From Thiobacillus denitrificans (GTDB taxonomy: Bacteria > Pseudomonadota > Gammaproteobacteria > Burkholderiales > Thiobacillaceae): a DNA stretch of 64,000 nucleotides. Positions within the stretch are counted from its first letter, which is position 1. Each line of letters starts with the position of its first letter. Shown here one piece after another: positions 28,901 to 50,999 of this stretch. The notes beneath the pieces are model-generated. The model saw nothing but the letters and a program-made list of their open reading frames with translations. It was not told where the DNA came from and made no database searches. The stretch is from positions 1 through 64,000 of the forward strand of contig DYIY01000005.1 of the NCBI GenBank assembly GCA_020723405.1, given 5' to 3'. The position numbers were made by a program, and so were the translations under genes.

Positions 28901-31018
28901 TCACGCCGGTTTCAGGGCGCAGAACAGATCATCCTGGGCCACATCCCCCAGACGCTCGTAGATGGCGGCGATGGCCTGGTCCTCGGTGGCGAAGATGTTG
29001 GCCTGGGTCACCAGGTCGAACAGGCCGGTGGCGCGCATCACGTCCAGCACCTGTTTCTTCAGGCCGGAGAACACCAGGGTCACCCCGTTCTCCTTGAGCC
29101 GGCTCACCAGATGGTGGATCACTTCTTCCCCTGAAGCGTCCAGTTGGTTGATGCCGTCACCCACCACCAGGAAGTACCTGGCTTCGGGATGGTCGGCCAG
29201 GGCGGAGAGCACCGTGTCCTCGAAGTAGGACACGTTGGCGAAGTAGAGCTGGCCGTCGAAGCGCATGGCCACCACGTGCTTGCTGGTGGGGATGCCCGGA
29301 TTCACTTTGATGTCCCGCAGGGTGCCGTCCTTGAAGCGGCCCAGTTGGGCCACCCGGGGCTTCATGGTGCGCATGAGGAAGAGGATCAGGGCCAGGCCGG
29401 CGCCCACCATGATGCCGTTGTCCAGGTGGGGGGCGAAGGCCAGGGTGGCGATGAAAGTCACCACGGAGGCGGCGCCGTCATGCTTGTTGGCATGCCAGGC
29501 GTGCTTGATGGCCTCGAAGTTCACCAGGCCGATCACCGCCATGATGATGATGGCCGCCAGCACCGCCTGGGGCAGGTGATAGAGCAGGGGCGTCAGGAAC
29601 AACAGGGTGATGAGCACGAACACGGCGGTATAGACCGAGCTCATGCCGGTCCTGGCCCCCGAGTTCATGTTCACCGCCGAGCGGGAGAAGGATCCGGACA
29701 CCGGGAAGGCCTGGGTCATGGAACCGACGATGTTGGACAGGCCCTGGCCCACCAGTTCCTGATTGGGGTCCAGACGCTGCTTGGTCTTGGCGGCGATGGC
29801 CTTGGCGATGGAGATGGCCTCCATGAAGCCCACCAGGGAGATCACCAGGGCGGCGGAAAGCAGGGCCCCCAGCTTGTCCAGGTCGAACTTGGGCAGGGCC
29901 GGCGCCGGCAGCCCCTCGGGGATCTTGCCCACCACCTCGCCGCCGCCGGCCAACCTGATTTCACCCTTGGCCACCTTGGCGATCTTCCAGACGCCGCCAT
30001 CGGTTTGCACCCCGGCGGGAGCCGCCCCGGCCCGGTGCAGAACGCCCAGCTTGCCGTCGGCCAGCACTTCCCGCTCGAACTTCAGCTTGCGCAGTTCCTT
30101 CAGGCGCTTGGCGTTGGAGGCCTCAAGCACCTTGGCCTGGGAGAGGAGCAGATCGGCCTGGTAGTTGAGGGCCAGGACGAACTGGGCGTTGTCCCCCCCC
30201 TCCTTCTCCAGTTTCTTGGCTTCCGCCTGGTTGGCCAGGGCATCGGCATTCACCTGGCTCAACTGCTTCTCGGCCGCCTCGTATTCGATGAGCATGGACA
30301 CGATCTGGGGATCGGCCACCTCGTCCACGTGTACGGTGGCCTGCTTCTCGAAACCGATGGCCCAGGACACCACGGTGGTCAATACCACGGCGATCAACAC
30401 GCCGGGCAGCTTGGGCTTGAACTTCCTGATGCCCCACATGATGGCGATGGCCGCCACCCCCATGGCCAGGGTGGGCAGGTGGGTGTCGCCGATCTGCTTG
30501 AACACGCCGACGATGTCGTTGATGAAGTGCTCGCTGCGCCCCATGGGCACGCCGAACAGCTTGGACACCTGGGACAGGGCGATGATGATGGCCGCCGCGT
30601 TGGTAAAGCCGACGATGACCGGATGGGAGAGGAAGTTCACGATCACCCCCAGCTTGAACACCCCCAGGAGCAACTGGATCACCCCCACCAGCAGGGCCAA
30701 CATGATGGCCAGGGCCACGAAGTCGGGGGACCCGGGGGCCGCCAGCACCGCCAGGGAAGAGGCCGTCAGCAGGGACACCACCGCCACCGGTCCGGTGCCC
30801 AACTGGTTGGAACTGCCCCACAGGGCCGCCACCGCCACCGGCAGGAAGGCCGCGTAGAGGCCGTAGTAGGCCGGCAGACCCGCCAGTTGGGCATAGGCCA
30901 TGGACTGGGGGATGAGCACCAGGGCCACGGTGATGCCGGCCATGAAATCGGCCTTGATGGTCTCCCCACGCATGGGGAACCAGCGCAGGAAGGGCAGGAA
31001 GCGGGCGAACTTGTTCAT
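28901..31018 (-). CDS. SulP-family anion transporter with large internal insert and STAS domain
   Basis: A 705-aa SulP protein. The membrane domain starts with DFMAGITVALVLIPQSMAYAQ and ends near 545; a cytoplasmic STAS domain follows (INQLDASGEEVIHHL). Unlike ordinary SulP proteins it carries an insert of about 130 residues (roughly 229-365) rich in Lys/Glu/Ala, predicted coiled coil, closing with KGEIRLAGGGEVVGKIP. The second SulP of the window shares it. SulP members move sulfate, bicarbonate or other anions; bicarbonate is suggested by context only. Confidence 0.9.
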   Translation of the reverse strand: MNKFARFLPFLRWFPMRGETIKADFMAGITVALVLIPQSMAYAQLAGLPAYYGLYAAFLPVAVAALWGSSNQLGTGPVAVVSLLTASSLAVLAAPGSPDFVALAIMLALLVGVIQLLLGVFKLGVIVNFLSHPVIVGFTNAAAIIIALSQVSKLFGVPMGRSEHFINDIVGVFKQIGDTHLPTLAMGVAAIAIMWGIRKFKPKLPGVLIAVVLTTVVSWAIGFEKQATVHVDEVADPQIVSMLIEYEAAEKQLSQVNADALANQAEAKKLEKEGGDNAQFVLALNYQADLLLSQAKVLEASNAKRLKELRKLKFEREVLADGKLGVLHRAGAAPAGVQTDGGVWKIAKVAKGEIRLAGGGEVVGKIPEGLPAPALPKFDLDKLGALLSAALVISLVGFMEAISIAKAIAAKTKQRLDPNQELVGQGLSNIVGSMTQAFPVSGSFSRSAVNMNSGARTGMSSVYTAVFVLITLLFLTPLLYHLPQAVLAAIIIMAVIGLVNFEAIKHAWHANKHDGAASVVTFIATLAFAPHLDNGIMVGAGLALILFLMRTMKPRVAQLGRFKDGTLRDIKVNPGIPTSKHVVAMRFDGQLYFANVSYFEDTVLSALADHPEARYFLVVGDGINQLDASGEEVIHHLVSRLKENGVTLVFSGLKKQVLDVMRATGLFDLVTQANIFATEDQAIAAIYERLGDVAQDDLFCALKPA

Positions 31019-42346: not shown

Positions 42347-42378
42347 TTGCATTATGCAACATTTTGTTGCATTGCAAC
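42347..42378. promoter_or_regulatory. nested palindromes, probable operator of the gamma-CA/SulP intergenic region
   Basis: Three overlapping dyads occur: TTGCATTATGCAA (42347-42359), ATGCAACA-TTT-TGTTGCAT (42354-42372) and GTTGCATTGCAAC (42366-42378). They sit 30-60 bases before the SulP ATG and could bind a dimeric regulator of either divergent gene. No sigma-54 site is visible here, unlike the other SulP operons. Confidence 0.55.
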
Positions 42379-42407
42379 CAGAACATGATCCCACAGGCGC
42401 CCTTCCG

Positions 42408-44531
42408 ATGAACAACCCGCTGCTGCTCCGCTTATTCCCCTTCCTGGCCTGGTTCCCCGTCTCCTCCCTGATCCTGCGCGGTGACATGATCGCCGGCATC
42501 ACCGGCGCCCTGGTGCTGGTGCCCAAGGCCATGGCTTACGCGCAACTGTCCGGCCTGCCGGTGTATTTCGGCCTCTACGTGGCCTTCATCCCGGCCATCA
42601 TCGGCGCGCTTTGGGGTTCCTCCCGGCAACTGGCCACCGGCCCGGTGGCCATCGTCTCCCTGATGACCGCCGCCGCCATCTCGCCCCTGGCGGTGCCCTT
42701 CTCGGAAGAATTCATCGGCCTGGCCCTGCTGCTCTCCCTGATGGTGGGGGTCATCCAGTTCAGCCTGGGGGCGGTGAAGCTGGGCACCATCGTCAACTTC
42801 GTCTCCCATCCGGTGATCCTGGGCTTCATGAACGCGGCGGCGGTGATCATCGCCCTGTCTCAGTTGGACATGCTGCTGGGCATCCCCAAGGGCCGCAGCG
42901 ATTCCTTCCTCTATGACATCTGGGAAATGTTCGGCTACCTGCCGCAAACCCACCTGCCCACCCTGGCCATGTCGGCCTTCGCCCTGGCTCTCATGCTGGG
43001 TCTGAAGAAGATCCCCGCCCTGTCCAAGCTGTCGGTGCTCATCGCCGTGGTGGTCACCATCATCGTCAGCGCCGTGCTGGAGTTCGAGCACAAGGCCAAG
43101 GGCACCCCGGACCGCATTGCCGACAGCCAGGCCCAGGAACTGGTGCTGGCCTACGCCGGCACCGCCAAGCGCATCGACAGCATGAGCGCCGAGGTCACCG
43201 CCCTGGGCACCCAGATCCGCGCCGCCCAGAAGGCCCACGACGAACGCACCGTGGCCGACCTGGACTACACCGCCGAGGTCTATCGCCTGGAAATCGCCAC
43301 CCTGGAAGACGAGAACAAGGAGCGCATGCACGCCCTGCGCAAGCTCCAGTTCGAGCGGGCCAAGGCCCCCGAGGGCGACAACGCCGTGCTCTACGTGGCC
43401 GGCCAGGTGCCCGAGGGCATCGAGACCGACGGCCGCCACTGGCACATCAAGAAGATCGAGAAGGGTGAGATCAAGCTGGTGGGCGGCGGCGACGTGGTGG
43501 GCAAGATCCCCTCCGGCCTGCCCGCCTTCCGCCTGCCGCCCCTGTCCCTGGATGCCATGATGCAGTTGCTGTCCGCCGCCTTCATCATCGCCCTGGTGGC
43601 CTTCATGGAATCCATCTCCATGGCCAAGGCCCTGGCGGCCCAGACCAAGCAGCGCCTGGACCCCAACCAGGAGCTGATCGGCCAGGGCCTGTCCAACATC
43701 GCCGGTTCCTTCTTCCAGGCCTACCCGGCCTGCGGCTCCTTCACCGGCTCGGCCATCAACCTCCAGGCCGGGGCCAAGACCGGCTTCGCCATGGTGTTCA
43801 ACGGCCTGTTCGTCACCGTGACCCTGCTGTTCCTCACCGACTACCTCTACCACCTGCCCAAGGCCACCCTGGCGGTGATCATCCTGCTGGCGGTCACCAG
43901 CCTGATCACCCCCAAGGCCCTCAAGCACACCTGGCAGGCCAGCAAGATGGACGGCATCGTGGCCGGGGTCACCTTCGTCATCACCCTGGTGGCCGCCCCC
44001 CACCTGGACAAGGGCATCCTCATCGGCGCCGGCCTGGCCATCATCCTGTACCTCTACCGCACCATGAAGCCCCGGGTCGCCCAACTGGGCCGCTTCAAGG
44101 ACGGCACCCTGCGGGACATCAAGGTGAACCCGGACATCCCCACCAGCCCCCACATCATCGCCATGCGCTTCGACGGCTCCCTGTATTTCGCCAACGTGGC
44201 CTACTTCGAGGACAACGTGCTGGAAATGGTGGCCGCCAAGCCCAACGCCAAGTACCTGCTGGTGGTGGGCGACGCCATCAACCAGCTGGACGCCTCCGGC
44301 GAGGAAGTGGTGCACCATCTGGTGGACCGCATGCGCGAGAACGGCCTGGAAATCGTCTTCTCCGGCCTGAAGAAACAGATCCTGGACGTGATGCGTTCCA
44401 CCGGCCTGTTCGACAAGATCGGCCAGCCCAACATCTTCGCCACCGAAGACCAGGCCATCGCCGCCATCTACGAACGGCTGGGCGAAGAAGCCAAGGACGA
44501 CCTGTTCTGCATGGTGCCGGCCCGGGCCTGA
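42408..44531 (+). CDS. SulP-family anion transporter with large internal insert and STAS domain
   Basis: A 707-aa paralogue of the SulP at 28.9-31.0 kb, including the extra region at about 229-365 (LRKLQFERAKA and KGEIKLVGGGDVVGKIP are shared) and the STAS domain (INQLDASGEEVVHHLV). The start MNNPLLLRLFPFLAWFP aligns with the paralogue; the frame is open to 42354 but that part holds an operator. It is divergent from the gamma-carbonic anhydrase and ends at a strong terminator, so it is transcribed alone. Bicarbonate is a plausible substrate by context. Confidence 0.9.
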   Translation: MNNPLLLRLFPFLAWFPVSSLILRGDMIAGITGALVLVPKAMAYAQLSGLPVYFGLYVAFIPAIIGALWGSSRQLATGPVAIVSLMTAAAISPLAVPFSEEFIGLALLLSLMVGVIQFSLGAVKLGTIVNFVSHPVILGFMNAAAVIIALSQLDMLLGIPKGRSDSFLYDIWEMFGYLPQTHLPTLAMSAFALALMLGLKKIPALSKLSVLIAVVVTIIVSAVLEFEHKAKGTPDRIADSQAQELVLAYAGTAKRIDSMSAEVTALGTQIRAAQKAHDERTVADLDYTAEVYRLEIATLEDENKERMHALRKLQFERAKAPEGDNAVLYVAGQVPEGIETDGRHWHIKKIEKGEIKLVGGGDVVGKIPSGLPAFRLPPLSLDAMMQLLSAAFIIALVAFMESISMAKALAAQTKQRLDPNQELIGQGLSNIAGSFFQAYPACGSFTGSAINLQAGAKTGFAMVFNGLFVTVTLLFLTDYLYHLPKATLAVIILLAVTSLITPKALKHTWQASKMDGIVAGVTFVITLVAAPHLDKGILIGAGLAIILYLYRTMKPRVAQLGRFKDGTLRDIKVNPDIPTSPHIIAMRFDGSLYFANVAYFEDNVLEMVAAKPNAKYLLVVGDAINQLDASGEEVVHHLVDRMRENGLEIVFSGLKKQILDVMRSTGLFDKIGQPNIFATEDQAIAAIYERLGEEAKDDLFCMVPARA

Positions 44532-44550
44532 TTGGCATCCGCTGGGTGAC

Positions 44551-44579
44551 AAGGCCGGCGCAAGCCGGCCTTTGTCTTT
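44551..44579 (+). terminator. rho-independent terminator after SulP
   Basis: A perfect nine-base-pair stem AAGGCCGGC/GCCGGCCTT with a GCAA loop is followed by TGTCTTT. It lies 20 bases after the SulP stop. Confidence 0.9.
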
Positions 44580-44598
44580 GTGGCTTGGTGTCGTGTAG

Positions 44599-44671
44599 GG
44601 TGTGGTGAGCCTAGCGAACCGCACCACCCGGCAACGGTTGATTGATGCGGTTCGCTAGGCTCACCACATCC
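44599..44671. repeat. long palindromic repeat (GTGGTGAGC...GCGAACCGCA family)
   Basis: Arms of 25 bases (44599-44623 and 44646-44671) are complementary apart from one position. The same family forms the insert at the hyfC-hyfE junction, so at least two copies exist in the window. It resembles a MITE or REP element. Confidence 0.8.
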
Positions 44672-44746
44672 ACATCCACATCGACAGGACTTCAGCAACT
44701 TCTGCCTGAATCCCTGGAAACCCACTTCCCCAATACCGAGCCCGCC

Positions 44747-45268
44747 ATGTCCCCCGCCCCCTTGATCCGCGACGAAACCGCCAACGACGTTGACGCCATC
44801 ACCGACCTCACCCGCGCCGCCTTCGCGACCCTGGAAGTCAGCAGCCACACCGAACAGTTCATCATCGCCGCCCTGCGCGCCGCCGGGGCCCTCTCGGTTT
44901 CCCTGGTGGCGGAAGTGGATGGCCAGGTCGTGGGGCACATCGCCTTCTCACCCGTGACCCTGTCCGACGGCACCCCCGGCTGGTACGGCCTGGGCCCCAT
45001 ATCCGTATCGCCGGCCCAGCAGCGCCAGGGAATCGGAAAAGCGCTCATGGCGGCAGGCCTGAACCGCCTCAAGGCCATGCAAGCCCGGGGATGCTGCCTG
45101 GTGGGCCATCCGGAGTACTACGTCAAGTTCGGCTTCAGGAACGCACCGGGATTGGTGCTGGAGGGCGTACCCCCGGAATATTTCTTCGTGCTGTCGTTCG
45201 ACGGGCGGGTGCCCCAGGGGAGCGTCACTTTCCATGAAGCGTTCATGGCTGGGGGACCTCAAGGGTAA
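44747..45268 (+). CDS. GNAT N-acetyltransferase
   Basis: A 173-aa YhbS-type acetyltransferase. The acetyl-CoA loop is LGPISVSPAQQRQGIGKALM, with VVGHIAFSPV before it and GHPEYYVKFGFR after it. Substrate unknown. It is the last gene before the foreign-looking segment. Confidence 0.85.
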   Translation: MSPAPLIRDETANDVDAITDLTRAAFATLEVSSHTEQFIIAALRAAGALSVSLVAEVDGQVVGHIAFSPVTLSDGTPGWYGLGPISVSPAQQRQGIGKALMAAGLNRLKAMQARGCCLVGHPEYYVKFGFRNAPGLVLEGVPPEYFFVLSFDGRVPQGSVTFHEAFMAGGPQG

Positions 45269-45625
45269 TCGAGATGTTGCAGAGGTAGTGGCGACTTCCG
45301 GGGTCGTTGTGGCGGCTCTTCGGCCTGAGCAGACGTTCGTGCTGGAAGCGGTTACGGTCTGCAATGCACCTGGAGCGGCTGTTGGCCACCCGTGCCAGCT
45401 ACTCCCGTAGTCAGCCAGGAGCGGTTGCTGGTCACGGGCAGCTTCCGGGCATCTCGCCGGCTGTGGTTGGCCGCTGGCGCCTCAGGAGGCAAGCGGTGGT
45501 CACCATAAGGTTGGCGACCAAAGCCCAGGAGAGCGTTGTTCCTGGGTTGTTCCAAATAGTTGACACAGCGGTGCGAATGCAGTGACACTCCGGTCCGGAA
45601 CAACACTGGAACAACGGAGTGTGCC
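45269..45625. other. 357-base gap at the left edge of the island
   Basis: No convincing gene on either strand. Near the end are a CCCAGGA/TCCTGGG hairpin (45524-45546), a TTGACA hexamer at 45560-45565 without a good -10 partner, and a CACTCCG/CGGAGTG inverted repeat (45586-45592, 45615-45621) just before the GTPase-like start. These may be its control region. Confidence 0.4.
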
Positions 45626-47863
45626 ATGTCCGAAGCCTTCTACACCGCTAACCTGAGCCGGACGCAGGGCCGCAGCACCTGGGCCATCATCTTCCGGCAC
45701 CCCAAGCGCACCGACCCAACTACAGGCAAGGAAGGTCTGCGGGTGCGCCAAAGCCTGAAGACCGAGGACGACCACGAGGCTGCCAAGCTGCGGGACGACA
45801 TGAACGTCCTGCTCTCGAGCCCGCATCTGTGGGACCTCGGGGCGCGCGAGCAGGCCCTCGCCACGCTTGATCCCCGTGTCGTGGACATCTTCTACTACAA
45901 ACTTGAAGGTGGCGAGACCGACTTCCTGAGCTTGCGCGAGGCGGTTATCGCCATGCCTTCGGCGCAGACGAGCGAGTACCGGCGGGCCTTGATGCTCGGC
46001 ACGACCGGCGCGGGTAAGACGACGTTGCTGCGCCAGATCATCGGCACGGACCCGGCCCGTGAGCGCTTCCCCTCTACCTCCACCGCGAAGACGACGGTTC
46101 ATGAGACCGAGATCGTCCTCGCCGAAGGCCCCTTCCGGGCCGTCGTGACATTCTTCCCGATGGAGGACGTGCGCGAGCACCTGAAGGAATGCGCGTCGGC
46201 GGCGGTCCTCGCCGCCTATCGCGGAGAGCCCGAAGGCGAGCAGATGCGCCGCCTTCTCACTCACGTCAACCAGCGCTTCCGCTTCAACTACGTGCTTGGC
46301 AACGGGCCGGTCAGGGAGGTCAGCGATTTCGACGATGAGCCGGGGGTCGAGGCCGCCACGGAAGCCAGCGAGATGATGGAGCGCACCAACGAGGTTCTCG
46401 CGCAGGCACTCGACGCGCTGCAGGCTGTCGCCGCCCAGCACGGCGAGGCACTGCGGCGGGAGCTAAACGCGACGGAGGAGAAGGACCAGCGCGTTATCGA
46501 CGAACTGTTCGAGGAAGGTCTGGACAACCGGACGCGCGACGACGAGGCCTTCCAGCAGGTCGTAGACACGCTGATGGACGAGATCGAGGGGCGCTTCGCC
46601 GCGCTCGACGGCAAGCTGCAGAAGACCAAGGTCGGCTGGCCGATGAACTGGACGTGGGAGACGGAAGACCGGGACGCTTTCATCCGCACACTGGCCCGCT
46701 TCTCGTCGAACTACGCCCCGTTCTTCGGCACCCTCCTGACGCCGCTGGTCAACGGCGTCCGCGTCGCCGGGCCGTTCCATCCGACATGGAGCGGAGACGT
46801 GCCGAAACTCGTCCTGCTTGATGGCGAAGGCCTCGGCCACACGCCACGCTCGATGTCCACGATCTCGACGGCACTCGCAAGGCGCATCGATATGGTCGAT
46901 GCTGTGATCCTGGTCGACAACGCGACACAGCCGATGCTGGCCGCTCCGGTGGCGGCGATGAAGGAACTGGTGTCCTCGGGAAGCGCGCCGAAGCTGATCT
47001 TCGCGTTTACGCACTTCGATCAAGTCGGCGGCGACAACCTGCCGACCCCAACGGCGTGCGTCCACCATGTCCTGGCCTCCGCAGAGAACGTCCTGTCCTC
47101 CATCGGCGAAGACCTCGGGCCGTTCGCCGAAAGGGCACTGCGCGCCCGCCTGAGCACAGCGCGGGTCTTCCTCTCGGGGATCGACGCGAAGCTTGATGTC
47201 GCTTCCACCGACGGGCAGCGGACGATCAAACAAATCGGCAAGCTGTTGGAGATGGTGGACGGCATCATCGCGCGGCCCAAGCCTGCCGACTCGCGCCCCT
47301 TCTATGACCGCATGAATCTGGGGATCGCGGTCGAACGGGCTGCAGAAACCTTCCGCAATGCCTGGCGTCCCCGCCTCGGCCTCACCGTCAAACAGGGGAC
47401 CGAGAAAGAACACTGGACACGCGTCAAGGCGCTCAGCCGCCGCCTCGCGACGGGGCAGGCCGACGAATACGACAGCCTCAAACCCGTCGCGGACCTTAAG
47501 CTACTTCTCCAGCAGCGGCTCTACGTACTGCTGCAGAGCCCCGTCGGCTGGTCGGGGCAAGAGCCCAGCGACGACGACAAGCAGCACCTCTACGGCGCGA
47601 TTGCAGAGGACCTTAGCCGCAGGCTGATTGACCTCGCCTCTCGGCGCATCCGCACAGAGCGCTTGGCGGAATGGCGGAGCGCGTTCGATGAATCGGGCTA
47701 CCGCTCGACTTTCCGCCGCGCCGAGTTGATCGGGACGCAAATCTATGACCGGGCCGCGCCGATCCCCGACGTGACCCCCTCGCCGGACCGCAACGCGTTC
47801 CTGCAGGAGGTCGCTGAGGCAACGCGCGAGGCGACCGAAGCCGTCGGAGCGAAGCTCCTGTGA
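45626..47863 (+). CDS. large P-loop GTPase-like protein of unknown function
   Basis: A 745-aa protein I cannot name. Walker A GTTGAGKTT at 125-133, a DGEG (399-402) after hydrophobic VLL as in a G3 motif, and THFD (462-465) in the position of NKxD/TKxD support a TRAFAC-type GTPase. About 270 residues separate G1 and G3, far more than usual, filled by a charged helical region (180-360). Residues 8-70 resemble the N-terminal DNA-binding domain of tyrosine recombinases. GGAG eight bases before the ATG. It overlaps the next gene by GTGA. Codon use differs from the neighbours. Confidence 0.75.
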   Translation: MSEAFYTANLSRTQGRSTWAIIFRHPKRTDPTTGKEGLRVRQSLKTEDDHEAAKLRDDMNVLLSSPHLWDLGAREQALATLDPRVVDIFYYKLEGGETDFLSLREAVIAMPSAQTSEYRRALMLGTTGAGKTTLLRQIIGTDPARERFPSTSTAKTTVHETEIVLAEGPFRAVVTFFPMEDVREHLKECASAAVLAAYRGEPEGEQMRRLLTHVNQRFRFNYVLGNGPVREVSDFDDEPGVEAATEASEMMERTNEVLAQALDALQAVAAQHGEALRRELNATEEKDQRVIDELFEEGLDNRTRDDEAFQQVVDTLMDEIEGRFAALDGKLQKTKVGWPMNWTWETEDRDAFIRTLARFSSNYAPFFGTLLTPLVNGVRVAGPFHPTWSGDVPKLVLLDGEGLGHTPRSMSTISTALARRIDMVDAVILVDNATQPMLAAPVAAMKELVSSGSAPKLIFAFTHFDQVGGDNLPTPTACVHHVLASAENVLSSIGEDLGPFAERALRARLSTARVFLSGIDAKLDVASTDGQRTIKQIGKLLEMVDGIIARPKPADSRPFYDRMNLGIAVERAAETFRNAWRPRLGLTVKQGTEKEHWTRVKALSRRLATGQADEYDSLKPVADLKLLLQQRLYVLLQSPVGWSGQEPSDDDKQHLYGAIAEDLSRRLIDLASRRIRTERLAEWRSAFDESGYRSTFRRAELIGTQIYDRAAPIPDVTPSPDRNAFLQEVAEATREATEAVGAKLL

Positions 47864-49332
47864 GCGACAAGGCGAGCTGCGTTACTGCGACGGAGCGGCT
47901 GCTTGCGGAGTTCTGCGAGCGGTCGTTCCTGAAGCTATGGAGCTATCCAAATCCATACAAGGATGACGGGCACGAGCTGTGCGACCTGCTCGCGGTCTTT
48001 GGCGACACCGTGTTCATCTTCTTCGACCGTGAGAACATGCTGCCCGAAATCCCGGACAAGGACCCGCAGGTCCTCTGGGACCGCTGGAAGCGCAACGTCA
48101 TCGACCGCCAGACCCGGACCGCTCACGGGGCGGAGCGCTACATCCGCAATGGCAGGCCGATCTTCCTTGATGCGAAGCGGAAGCAACCCTTCCCGATCCC
48201 CTTCGACAAAGACAAGGCAGTCATCCACAAAATCATCGTCGCCCATGGCGCGAAAGCGGCTTGCGAGCGGGCATCGGCCCAGAACATCTATGGCAGCCTG
48301 GCCATCACCTACGGCGAGACCAGCGGCGAGCCAACCCAGCCCTTTCACGTCGAGATCGACCGGCACGATCCGGTCCACGTTCTCGATAGCCACAACATGC
48401 CCATCGTGCTGCGCGAGCTGGACACGGTCAGCGACTTCAAGGCGTATCTCGACGAGAAGGTCCGCGCCGCCGCGACCTTCGACTACCTGAGCTATTGCGG
48501 TGAAGAGGACCTCCTCGGTCACTACCTCTTGAACTACGACGCCGCGACGCAGCGTCATGTCATCGGGCCGAAGGGCAAAGACAAAGGCAAGGTCAATGGC
48601 GTGATGATCGGCGAGGGCGAGTGGCACGACTTCGTGCAGACTGATCTCTACAAGAACACCAAGAACGAAGACCGGATTTCGTACTTCTGGGACAAACTGA
48701 TCCAGAGGACCTGCCAGAATAGCCTCGACGGGACACTCGGCGGCAACTCCGACATCGCGCGCGGCGAGAGTGCGGTCTACGAGATGGTCAAGGAGCCGCG
48801 CTTCGTGCGACGGGGCCTATCCGCGAAGATACTCACCGCAGTCGAGCGCTTCCCAGACGACTGGAAATTCGCGCGCCAAGTGACGTTCCTGCCCTCTTTT
48901 GAGCCTAATGTCGGCTACGTGCTTCTGCAGTTGCGTGTGCCTGATGAGTACCGCGCGACGGCGGACTTCCGCGAGAAGCGGCAGACGCTTCTGGAGATCG
49001 CCTGTGGCGCAGCGAAGAACAAGTTCCCGAACCTTGTGAAGGTCATCGGAATTGGCATCGAAGCGCCGAAGTTCTCGGGCGGCACGGTGGCTGAGGATTT
49101 CATCCTGATGCCTTGCGAGAGGTGGCCCAAGGAGACAAAGGCCTACTACGAGGAGCTGAACCGGGAGTGGCGCTTCTTCGGTACGCCCGAGCTGCAGAAA
49201 TTCAACGACCGCGTCACCCGGTTCGTGCCGCCGCCGCGTCACGCCAAATCGGCAAAGCCCAGAAAAATCGGGCGCAACGATCTCTGTCCCTGCGGCTCAG
49301 GCAAGAAGTTCAAGAAGTGCCACGGGCGGTAG
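47860..49332 (+). CDS. SEC-C motif protein with possible nuclease-like N-terminus
   Basis: A 490-aa protein ending in a SEC-C zinc motif (Cys476, Cys478, Cys487, His488 in LCPCGSGKKFKKCH). The N-terminus has ELCDLLAVFGDTVFIFFDRE (39-58): acidic residues Glu39, Asp42, then Asp56-x-Glu58 at the end of a hydrophobic strand, like a PD-(D/E)xK nuclease core with Glu in place of Lys. The remainder is unrecognised. GTG start overlapping the GTPase-like stop, so the two form one translational unit. A defence function is inferred from architecture and setting only. Confidence 0.72.
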   Translation: MSDKASCVTATERLLAEFCERSFLKLWSYPNPYKDDGHELCDLLAVFGDTVFIFFDRENMLPEIPDKDPQVLWDRWKRNVIDRQTRTAHGAERYIRNGRPIFLDAKRKQPFPIPFDKDKAVIHKIIVAHGAKAACERASAQNIYGSLAITYGETSGEPTQPFHVEIDRHDPVHVLDSHNMPIVLRELDTVSDFKAYLDEKVRAAATFDYLSYCGEEDLLGHYLLNYDAATQRHVIGPKGKDKGKVNGVMIGEGEWHDFVQTDLYKNTKNEDRISYFWDKLIQRTCQNSLDGTLGGNSDIARGESAVYEMVKEPRFVRRGLSAKILTAVERFPDDWKFARQVTFLPSFEPNVGYVLLQLRVPDEYRATADFREKRQTLLEIACGAAKNKFPNLVKVIGIGIEAPKFSGGTVAEDFILMPCERWPKETKAYYEELNREWRFFGTPELQKFNDRVTRFVPPPRHAKSAKPRKIGRNDLCPCGSGKKFKKCHGR

Positions 49333-49631
49333 TGTCGAACGTCACACGGGACGATGTTTTGCACGCAAGACTCCCGACGCGGTGGCCCGAAAGGCCTCAA
49401 GTCGTGCGCCGCGCCTCCATCGCCCCGAATGCTGCCGAGCAGCAGGGCGACCGTCGGGGCTCGGTACAAATCCGAACGCCCGCTCCGGGGCGACGAATTC
49501 GTGGCCGCGGATGTCGCTAATGGGTCGGGTGCGCCCCGACACGGCACTTACCTTGTAGGTCGGCTTTGAGGCGATAGCGGTCATCAATGATGTTCGACTT
49601 GATCGGCTGCTTCGGCCGAACAGCCGCCCCC
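49333..49631. other. 299-base gap at the right edge of the island
   Basis: No gene supported. The minus strand contains degenerate peptide-like stretches in several frames, similar in style to intergenic repeats of alphaproteobacteria; this is an impression without a search. No tRNA or clear attachment duplication is visible. Confidence 0.35.

Positions 49632-50999
<1,368 letters not shown>

Follow-up and report, generated by a model that had tools for sequence, protein, structure and literature searches.

What kind of system is formed by two overlapping genes that stand within a small island in Thiobacillus denitrificans, and could it act against phages? The genes, which we call A and B, lie at positions 45,626 to 49,332 of a 64,000-nucleotide stretch of contig DYIY01000005.1 (assembly GCA_020723405.1, positions 1 to 64,000 of the forward strand), the whole of which is referred to as the window. 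A preliminary description of this DNA had reported genes of 745 and 490 codons that overlap by GTGA, and these coordinates were borne out: gene A (45626-47863, + strand) has 745 codons from its ATG, within an open frame that begins at 45560, while gene B (47860-49332, + strand) has 490 codons from a GTG start, the shared GTGA lying at 47860-47863. We propose that A is an autoregulated, dynamin-family defense GTPase with interchangeable effectors, and we put the probability of this overall mechanism at roughly 0.6, a judgement and not a product of separate figures. A is probably a new kind of phage-defense component because of its operator, its prophage and defense-gene settings, and its changing partners. 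Loci in other records are cited by their L numbers.

Gene A encodes a predicted dynamin-like GTPase

The features of gene A are as follows (aa, amino acids).

45626..47863, + strand: gene A, dynamin-like GTPase with an N-terminal integrase-arm-like domain, 745 aa
45638..45823, + strand: A residues 5-66, three strands and a helix, resembling an integrase arm or DUF6538, the likeness being weak by sequence
45998..46021, + strand: G1 (Walker A) motif GTTGAGKT, A residues 125-132
46820..46840, + strand: G3-like motif DGEGLGH, A residues 399-405, with D399, G400 and G402 invariant
47009..47020, + strand: G4-like motif THFD, A residues 462-465, invariant

The NTPase motifs that had been noticed in A proved to be conserved: in alignments of 20 and 24 homologues, GTTGAGKT, D399-G400-x-G402 and T462-H-F-D465 either never vary or are kept in 90% or more. 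In Foldseek searches with A, the top rows were dynamins and seven rows had E <=0.001; BDLP was aligned with residues 114-742 at a root-mean-square deviation (rmsd) of 6.4. By computation, A very likely has the dynamin-family fold, and it would presumably act as a GTPase. The initial view of A as GTPase-like was thus correct as far as it went, but the protein is more than that, namely dynamin-like with an integrase-like N-terminal domain, and the operator described below had been missed. Family scans with A gave P-loop-sized or weak matches only, as did profile searches of PDB sequences, and no recombinase domain was seen in the family scan. The MADS protein mad8 was considered as a relative and dropped, since it reached just 22.6 bits over residues 115-295, around the P-loop.

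When the N-termini of 10 diverse A proteins were compared with Pfam, DUF6538, which we take to be an integrase N-terminal family, was the best or sole match in five, with E-values of 0.006-0.08 that do not reach the cut-off. An hhalign comparison of 25 A N-termini with a template of four DUF6538-matching N-termini from relatives, three of them above the family cut-off, gave a score of 27.8 and a probability of 71%; the best of 60 column-shuffled control profiles scored 18.5. These sequence comparisons suggest that the N-terminal domain of A probably resembles the arm-type domain of integrases. Three Rhodococcus A proteins (L020, L024 and L025, out of five Rhodococcus records) do not have this domain.

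Two direct and two inverted boxes precede gene A

The region between the acetyltransferase gene and gene A holds four short boxes arranged around a candidate promoter element.

45535..45542, + strand: operator box 1, GTTGTTCC
45546..45553, + strand: operator box 2, GTTGTTCC, 11 bp after box 1
45560..45565, + strand: candidate -35 element TTGACA, between boxes 2 and 3, with putative promoter activity
45597..45604, - strand: operator box 3, inverted, GGAACAAC on the + strand
45608..45615, - strand: operator box 4, inverted, ending 10 bp before the A start codon

Under one rule set, four boxes were found in 33 of 43 A upstream regions (near-identical prophages included) compared with 0 of 860 base-shuffled regions; in L023 they precede a DUF4258-A operon, which brings the total to 34. 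A stricter rule retained four boxes in 32 of the 43 regions, 29 of them distinct. A TTGAC separates box 2 from box 3 in 31 of these 32 strict operators; the box spacing is either 11/11 (18 operators) or 10/10 (14 operators) and never mixed, and the last box ends 3-19 bp before the start codon. Six of the eight box positions are nearly invariant when boxes are picked with one mismatch allowed, although this conservation is flattered because the boxes were chosen by their likeness to GTTGTTCC. Box spacing and, by eye, box sequence change together with the lineage of the A protein.

Exact scans of viral contigs hit the four-box pattern in 7 and in 2 contigs, and every one of these nine had been identified before as a carrier of A. 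An exact scan of 399 genomes placed the pattern at five sites in four genomes, always directly before an A gene; in genome G317 it also stands directly before a broken A copy. With the pattern reversed as a control, none of the genomes listed gave a match. Within the genome of the window itself, the box pair occurs without mismatch solely at A, and six other places have it with two mismatches. No boxes were found anywhere in Rhodococcus loci L020, L024 and L025, which are exactly the three whose A lacks the N-terminal domain. We consider it probable that A recognizes the boxes through its own N-terminal domain. Separately, G317 was seen to hold two A copies (C3 and C7; L030 and L037) with the same operator, the C7 copy being the broken one.

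The main alternative for the operator is that the boxes are the target of a host regulator, such as a repressor of the SOS response like that of alphaproteobacteria. A-B would then be a moron (a gene carried in addition, to the benefit of the lysogen) that responds to damage or induction. The alphaproteobacterial SOS direct repeat is GTTC-N7-GTTC (a literature search for it gave nothing), and this arrangement is present in 18 of the 43 A upstreams, one of them in an alphaproteobacterium (L010, Reyranella); moreover, SOS-controlled morons and defense genes exist. However, apart from L010 and L011 the named hosts of these 18 are Betaproteobacteria, whose SOS box is of another kind, while two plasmid copies from Alphaproteobacteria, L021 (Bradyrhizobium) and L022 (Rhizobium), have the 10-bp spacing that this repeat does not fit, as do the prophage copies. 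CTGT-N8-ACAG occurs in 0 of the 43 upstreams, the conserved positions extend beyond GTTC, and the pattern is confined to A genes in the 399 genomes and missing from the lineage without the N-terminal domain. Control by such a host factor is accordingly unlikely in our estimation, and autoregulation by A remains the preferred explanation of the boxes.

A occurs with different partner genes

Relatives of A were identified in 15 genome loci (39-95% identity), in 11 plasmids (five from Rhodococcus, six from Proteobacteria) and, by profile search, in 16 viral-contig loci; the window protein used alone retrieved no relative from the viral contigs, and A had no match among 50,697 phage records. At E 1e-20, A was present in 9 of the 399 genomes searched from the order and in 2 of 398 from the phylum, a sporadic distribution; both counts include its own genome and the first also some partial copies. 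The A-bearing prophages, plasmids and defense loci belong to Pseudomonadota and Acidobacteriota and, in copies that lack both N-terminal domain and boxes, to Actinomycetota as well. In a tree of 40 A proteins, the window A groups with L001, L002, L003, L005 and L004 (100/99).

The two genes had been described as a coupled pair. Their overlap is indeed conserved in the window and in L001, L002, L003 and L005, where B follows A, and B also stands behind a truncated A in L015, but the coupling is not obligate, as A and B each occur apart. In L004, the sister of L005 with an 88.7% identical A, an unrelated 524-aa gene takes the place of B. The A proteins of L006 and L012 are 97.3% identical, yet A is followed by an SduA-like gene in L006 and by no partner in L012. 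Behind A in L010 there is a 263-aa gene and then SduA (1.1e-159 to the PADLOC SduA model), to which the protein directly after A in L006 is 90% identical over 429 aa, while a protein related to the 263-aa one (76%) is encoded in L008. In L064, A lies inside a type I restriction locus and its end overlaps the predicted start of HsdR, which was assigned by profile, the other subunits being assigned by eye. B, in turn, has no A with it on plasmids of Xanthomonas and enterobacteria or in viral contigs L055-L059, of which L055 starts at B so that its upstream side is unseen. Given these partner swaps and the occurrence of B without A, the A-B pair represents one combination of separately travelling genes, and A changes partner genes even between near-identical copies.

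These exchanges bear on whether A-B is an ordinary toxin-antitoxin-like or addiction pair, in which A would restrain B and repress the operon via the boxes. While the overlapping genes, the autoregulatory-looking operator and the mobile island would all fit such a pair, prophages carry A by itself, other loci combine it with unrelated partners, and plasmids and viral contigs provide cases of B with no A. Since each occurs without the other, neither seems to need the other, and we regard an addiction pair as improbable, somewhat more so than control by an SOS-type repressor. An autoregulated A with exchangeable effectors is the reading we retain.

Recognized nucleases among the partners are limited to SduA and HsdR; the acidic-K patterns of a 282-aa and the 524-aa partner are motif readings by eye. 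The idea that all partners are nucleases was not borne out: profile comparison of the B N-terminus with SduA and with the 282-aa and 524-aa partners gave <1% probability. As for genes upstream of A, a divergent 614-aa gene adjoins it in L006, L007, L011 and L012, the L006 copy having a HipA_C domain, and two related genes come before A in L020 (6527-7929) and L025 (4516-5765), the first being NYN-ribonuclease-like by eye.

A is found in prophages and beside defense genes

A is solitary and on the strand opposite to the tail genes in 10 of the 16 viral loci (L044-L051, L053, L054). PHROGs assigned its neighbors in L051, L054 and L044 to tape measure, minor tail protein, tail terminator and unknown-function families, and by eye the remaining solitary loci have the same layout on at least one side, several of them being near copies of one another. 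In L041, A lies behind a major head and protease gene. Such places in prophages are typical of morons.

Defense genes were sought by profile among 20 promising-looking neighbor proteins, without a control set, and the counts are a minimum because only these 20 were scanned. Within about 10 kb of A, we found HsdR (L062, L064), DrmD-type helicases (L068, L004), a type III methyltransferase (L004), BrxC (L013), and a CBASS phospholipase and cyclase (L019). SduA (L010), PDC-S68 (L063) and a helicase with partial ZorD likeness (L023) are also near A, and a PLD protein with a ZacB match lies beside a partial A in L065. By annotation, BrxL (L024) and type I restriction (L025) are nearby as well. Restriction, BREX, DISARM-like, CBASS and Shedu loci are thus among those that A adjoins or lies within. 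The proposal that the window encodes a defense system is upheld to the extent that known defense genes lie beside a number of A relatives, but not in its assumption of a nuclease effector. A role of A in phage defense or superinfection exclusion appears likely.

Gene B is a SEC-C protein and candidate effector

47860..49332, + strand: gene B, SEC-C protein, 490 aa, candidate effector
47887..48147, + strand: candidate nuclease core, B residues 10-96, helix, three strands, helix
49273..49329, + strand: SEC-C zinc knuckle, B residues 472-490

The zinc knuckle ascribed to B was recovered as SEC-C (PF02810; E 8.9e-11, 41.9 bits against a cut-off of 20.4), and family scans with B, like profile searches of PDB sequences, found SEC-C only. 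Plasmid records with a match to B number 140, and in 108 of these the match extends over at least 80% of the protein; the 50,697 phage records hold three short matches to its C-terminal part. The nuclease-like acidic core that had been seen in B was not borne out, since its model (mean pLDDT 67.6; within residues 10-96, confidence is good from about residue 30) had no Foldseek match at E <=0.001. Residues E12 and D42 are invariant and D56 nearly so, with D56 directly before R or K and hence outside the D/E-x-K register of PD-(D/E)XK nucleases. As modeled, the N-terminal arrangement would suit a PD-(D/E)XK nuclease of non-canonical register, for which we see an even chance; that B is an effector with nuclease activity seems to us equally balanced.

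A distant B homologue (28%) at L059 7986-9455 is solitary between tail-region genes (by eye) in a viral contig, so that B too may be a lone moron. In viral contigs L056 (4540-5547) and L057 (4751-5758), a conserved 335-aa gene, DUF4238-like by eye, comes after the B homologues.

The genes lie on an inserted island

44542..49630, no strand: island of palindromic repeat, acetyltransferase gene, A and B, ~5.1 kb, its edges good to ~10 bp

The genes had been thought to form a foreign island, and comparison with congeners supports this. The island is flanked by a SulP-type transporter gene on one side and a sigma54-type response-regulator gene on the other (gene types by eye). Window DNA matches congeners L091 and L094 up to 44541 and 44531, respectively, and resumes at 49631-49632. 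The site is empty in these two of nine congener stretches, where the sulfate-transporter and response-regulator genes face each other with a gap of ~30 bp; the 5.1-kb stretch is therefore an insertion. Other genes separate the two flanking genes in L090, and the remaining stretches have other neighbors or contig ends. The non-coding edges of A-B, estimated earlier at ~300 bases, measure 357 bp from the stop of the GNAT acetyltransferase gene (45268) and 299 bp to the response-regulator stop (49632).

Codon use deviating from that of the neighbors had also been reported. The distances to the rest of the window are consistent with this (A frame 0.210, GNAT 0.181, B 0.179, with about 0.07-0.15 for other long frames with recognizable products), but five other frames of the 38 compared exceed B (0.19-0.31; two are 416 and 512 aa), and third-position GC is like that of the neighbors (A 84, B 83; seven neighboring frames 61, 76 and 82-93). 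The five high-distance frames look like chance frames, and gene calls there are rough. A and B are not chance frames because they have homologues, A in genome loci and B in plasmid records.

The insertion raises the question of whether A serves to move the element, as a DNA-handling factor derived from an integrase or related to recombination, and has no part in defense. The arm-like N-terminal domain, the inserted island, its spread at 92-95% protein identity among unrelated hosts, and a box layout resembling integrase arm sites speak for such a factor. Against it, A has no visible recombinase domain, and the boxes flank TTGAC in all but one of the strict operators and stop just short of the start codon. 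In addition, no repeats marking ends were found inside either island edge region, the two ends (200 and 220 bp compared) share no word of at least 9 bases, direct or inverted, and the stretches of DNA common to the window and other loci end at points that differ per locus. We judge this role very unlikely and continue to favor defense.

A 74-bp palindromic element lies at 44598-44671, at the left edge of the island; a query containing it gave 49 matches in its own genome, almost all of which fall on this element, and also matched congeners many times. Two SulP-type transporter genes in the window (42354-44531 and 28901-31018) have 79% DNA similarity over 385 bp, and in congeners, too, genes of the transporter and regulator types are found around the site of the island.

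A proposed mechanism

In the mechanism we favor, the integrase-arm-type domain of A would bind the four boxes flanking its own promoter, and A so bound would repress its operon or hold it poised. Phage infection would then draw A off the operator, or A would be switched by GTP-driven assembly, and the operon would be induced. Together with whichever effector is encoded behind it, B in the window and a Shedu nuclease, HsdR or another protein in other loci, A would stop the phage or kill the cell. More tentatively, and in our view doubtful at present, A could be a dynamin that acts on DNA. With its arm domains lined up through assembly powered by GTP, it would hold and loop DNA, keeping the operon silent from the boxes at rest and, upon infection, assembling on phage DNA or on replication or packaging complexes to deliver the partner effector.

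Several observations count against an autoregulated, dynamin-family defense GTPase. The Foldseek E-values of A are modest, with whole-chain TM-scores of 0.13-0.26 and rmsd >20 for the first 17 rows, and EF-Tu, GIMAP and Toc are also among its rows, the core being common to all TRAFAC GTPases. The score with Pfam Dynamin_N (PF00350) is 12.3 bits against a cut-off of 27. The G3 of A is DGEG without the proline of the usual DxPG, and its G4 is without the usual lysine. Dynamins usually act on membranes, and A has no transmembrane-like stretch (best 19-residue mean hydropathy 1.22). The N-terminus of the window A has no Pfam match of its own, and the likeness of the N-terminal domain is weak by sequence. 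With respect to the operator, the 43 upstreams are inflated by near-identical prophages, and L013, L014, L019, L022, L063 and L064 have the N-terminal domain yet fail the box scan; by eye only, these six have changed boxes, such as GTGTTCC, GATGTTCC and GATATACC. The joint loss of domain and boxes in Rhodococcus is a single event, since L020, L024 and L025 form one lineage on a long branch. Finally, the scan for defense neighbors was of chosen proteins without controls, and no defense gene was recognized by eye in L009, L012, L014 and L021.

The least probable alternative, a housekeeping membrane-remodeling dynamin with mobile genes nearby by chance, would account for the dynamin-like fold but is at odds with the sporadic distribution of A in order and phylum, its carriage by prophages and plasmids, and its lack of an evident membrane segment.

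If the favored mechanism is true, A would couple a GTPase both to DNA and to its own expression in a novel manner, the dynamins being known for work on membranes and, in some cases, against viruses. The conserved four-box operator, seen to date at A genes alone, provides a defined feature at which binding, looping and induction upon infection can be followed, and it can serve as a DNA tag by which other family members are located; the changing partners are a ready set of candidate effectors.

Comparison with known systems

As the preliminary description had supposed, the pair was not recognized as a named system: in PADLOC 2.0.0 none matched over most of A or B, and B was matched solely in its SEC-C tail. 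That zinc knuckle is all that B has in common with SEC-C proteins (PADLOC E2 and PDC-S12; the tails of SecA and YchJ), and its other ~460 residues match none of them. Shedu (SduA, DUF4263) resembles the system in position, SduA being the second gene behind A in L010 and its relative occupying the place of B directly after A in L006, but B is not SduA; to our knowledge, Shedu is known without a dynamin-like partner.

The N-terminal domain of A is like the arm-type domain of tyrosine integrases, or DUF6538, in its three strands and helix, with weak sequence matches, but differs in being joined to a GTPase and in showing no recombinase domain. The eukaryotic Mx proteins MxA and MxB are far from A in sequence and, as far as we know, have no integrase-like domain. 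SynDLP, BDLP, IniA, the C. jejuni DLP pair and LeoA are alike to A in the GTPase domain and helical parts and include its best structural matches, although LeoA (4aur) was matched only at a Foldseek E of 0.02; by sequence, solved dynamin chains gave no match to A, or P-loop-sized or weak matches only. Unlike these bacterial dynamin-like proteins, A has a DNA-binding-like N-terminal domain, a four-box operator and no evident membrane segment. Among the titles and abstract openings listed in one open-access library, we found no dynamin with an integrase-like domain and no such operator described. Bacterial dynamins with an anti-phage effect are known, however: DynA of Bacillus subtilis is reported to have such an effect, clustering at the membrane and delaying lysis (PMC8844932). 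Compared with DynA, A is set apart by its DNA-binding-like domain, its mobile settings and its varying partners.

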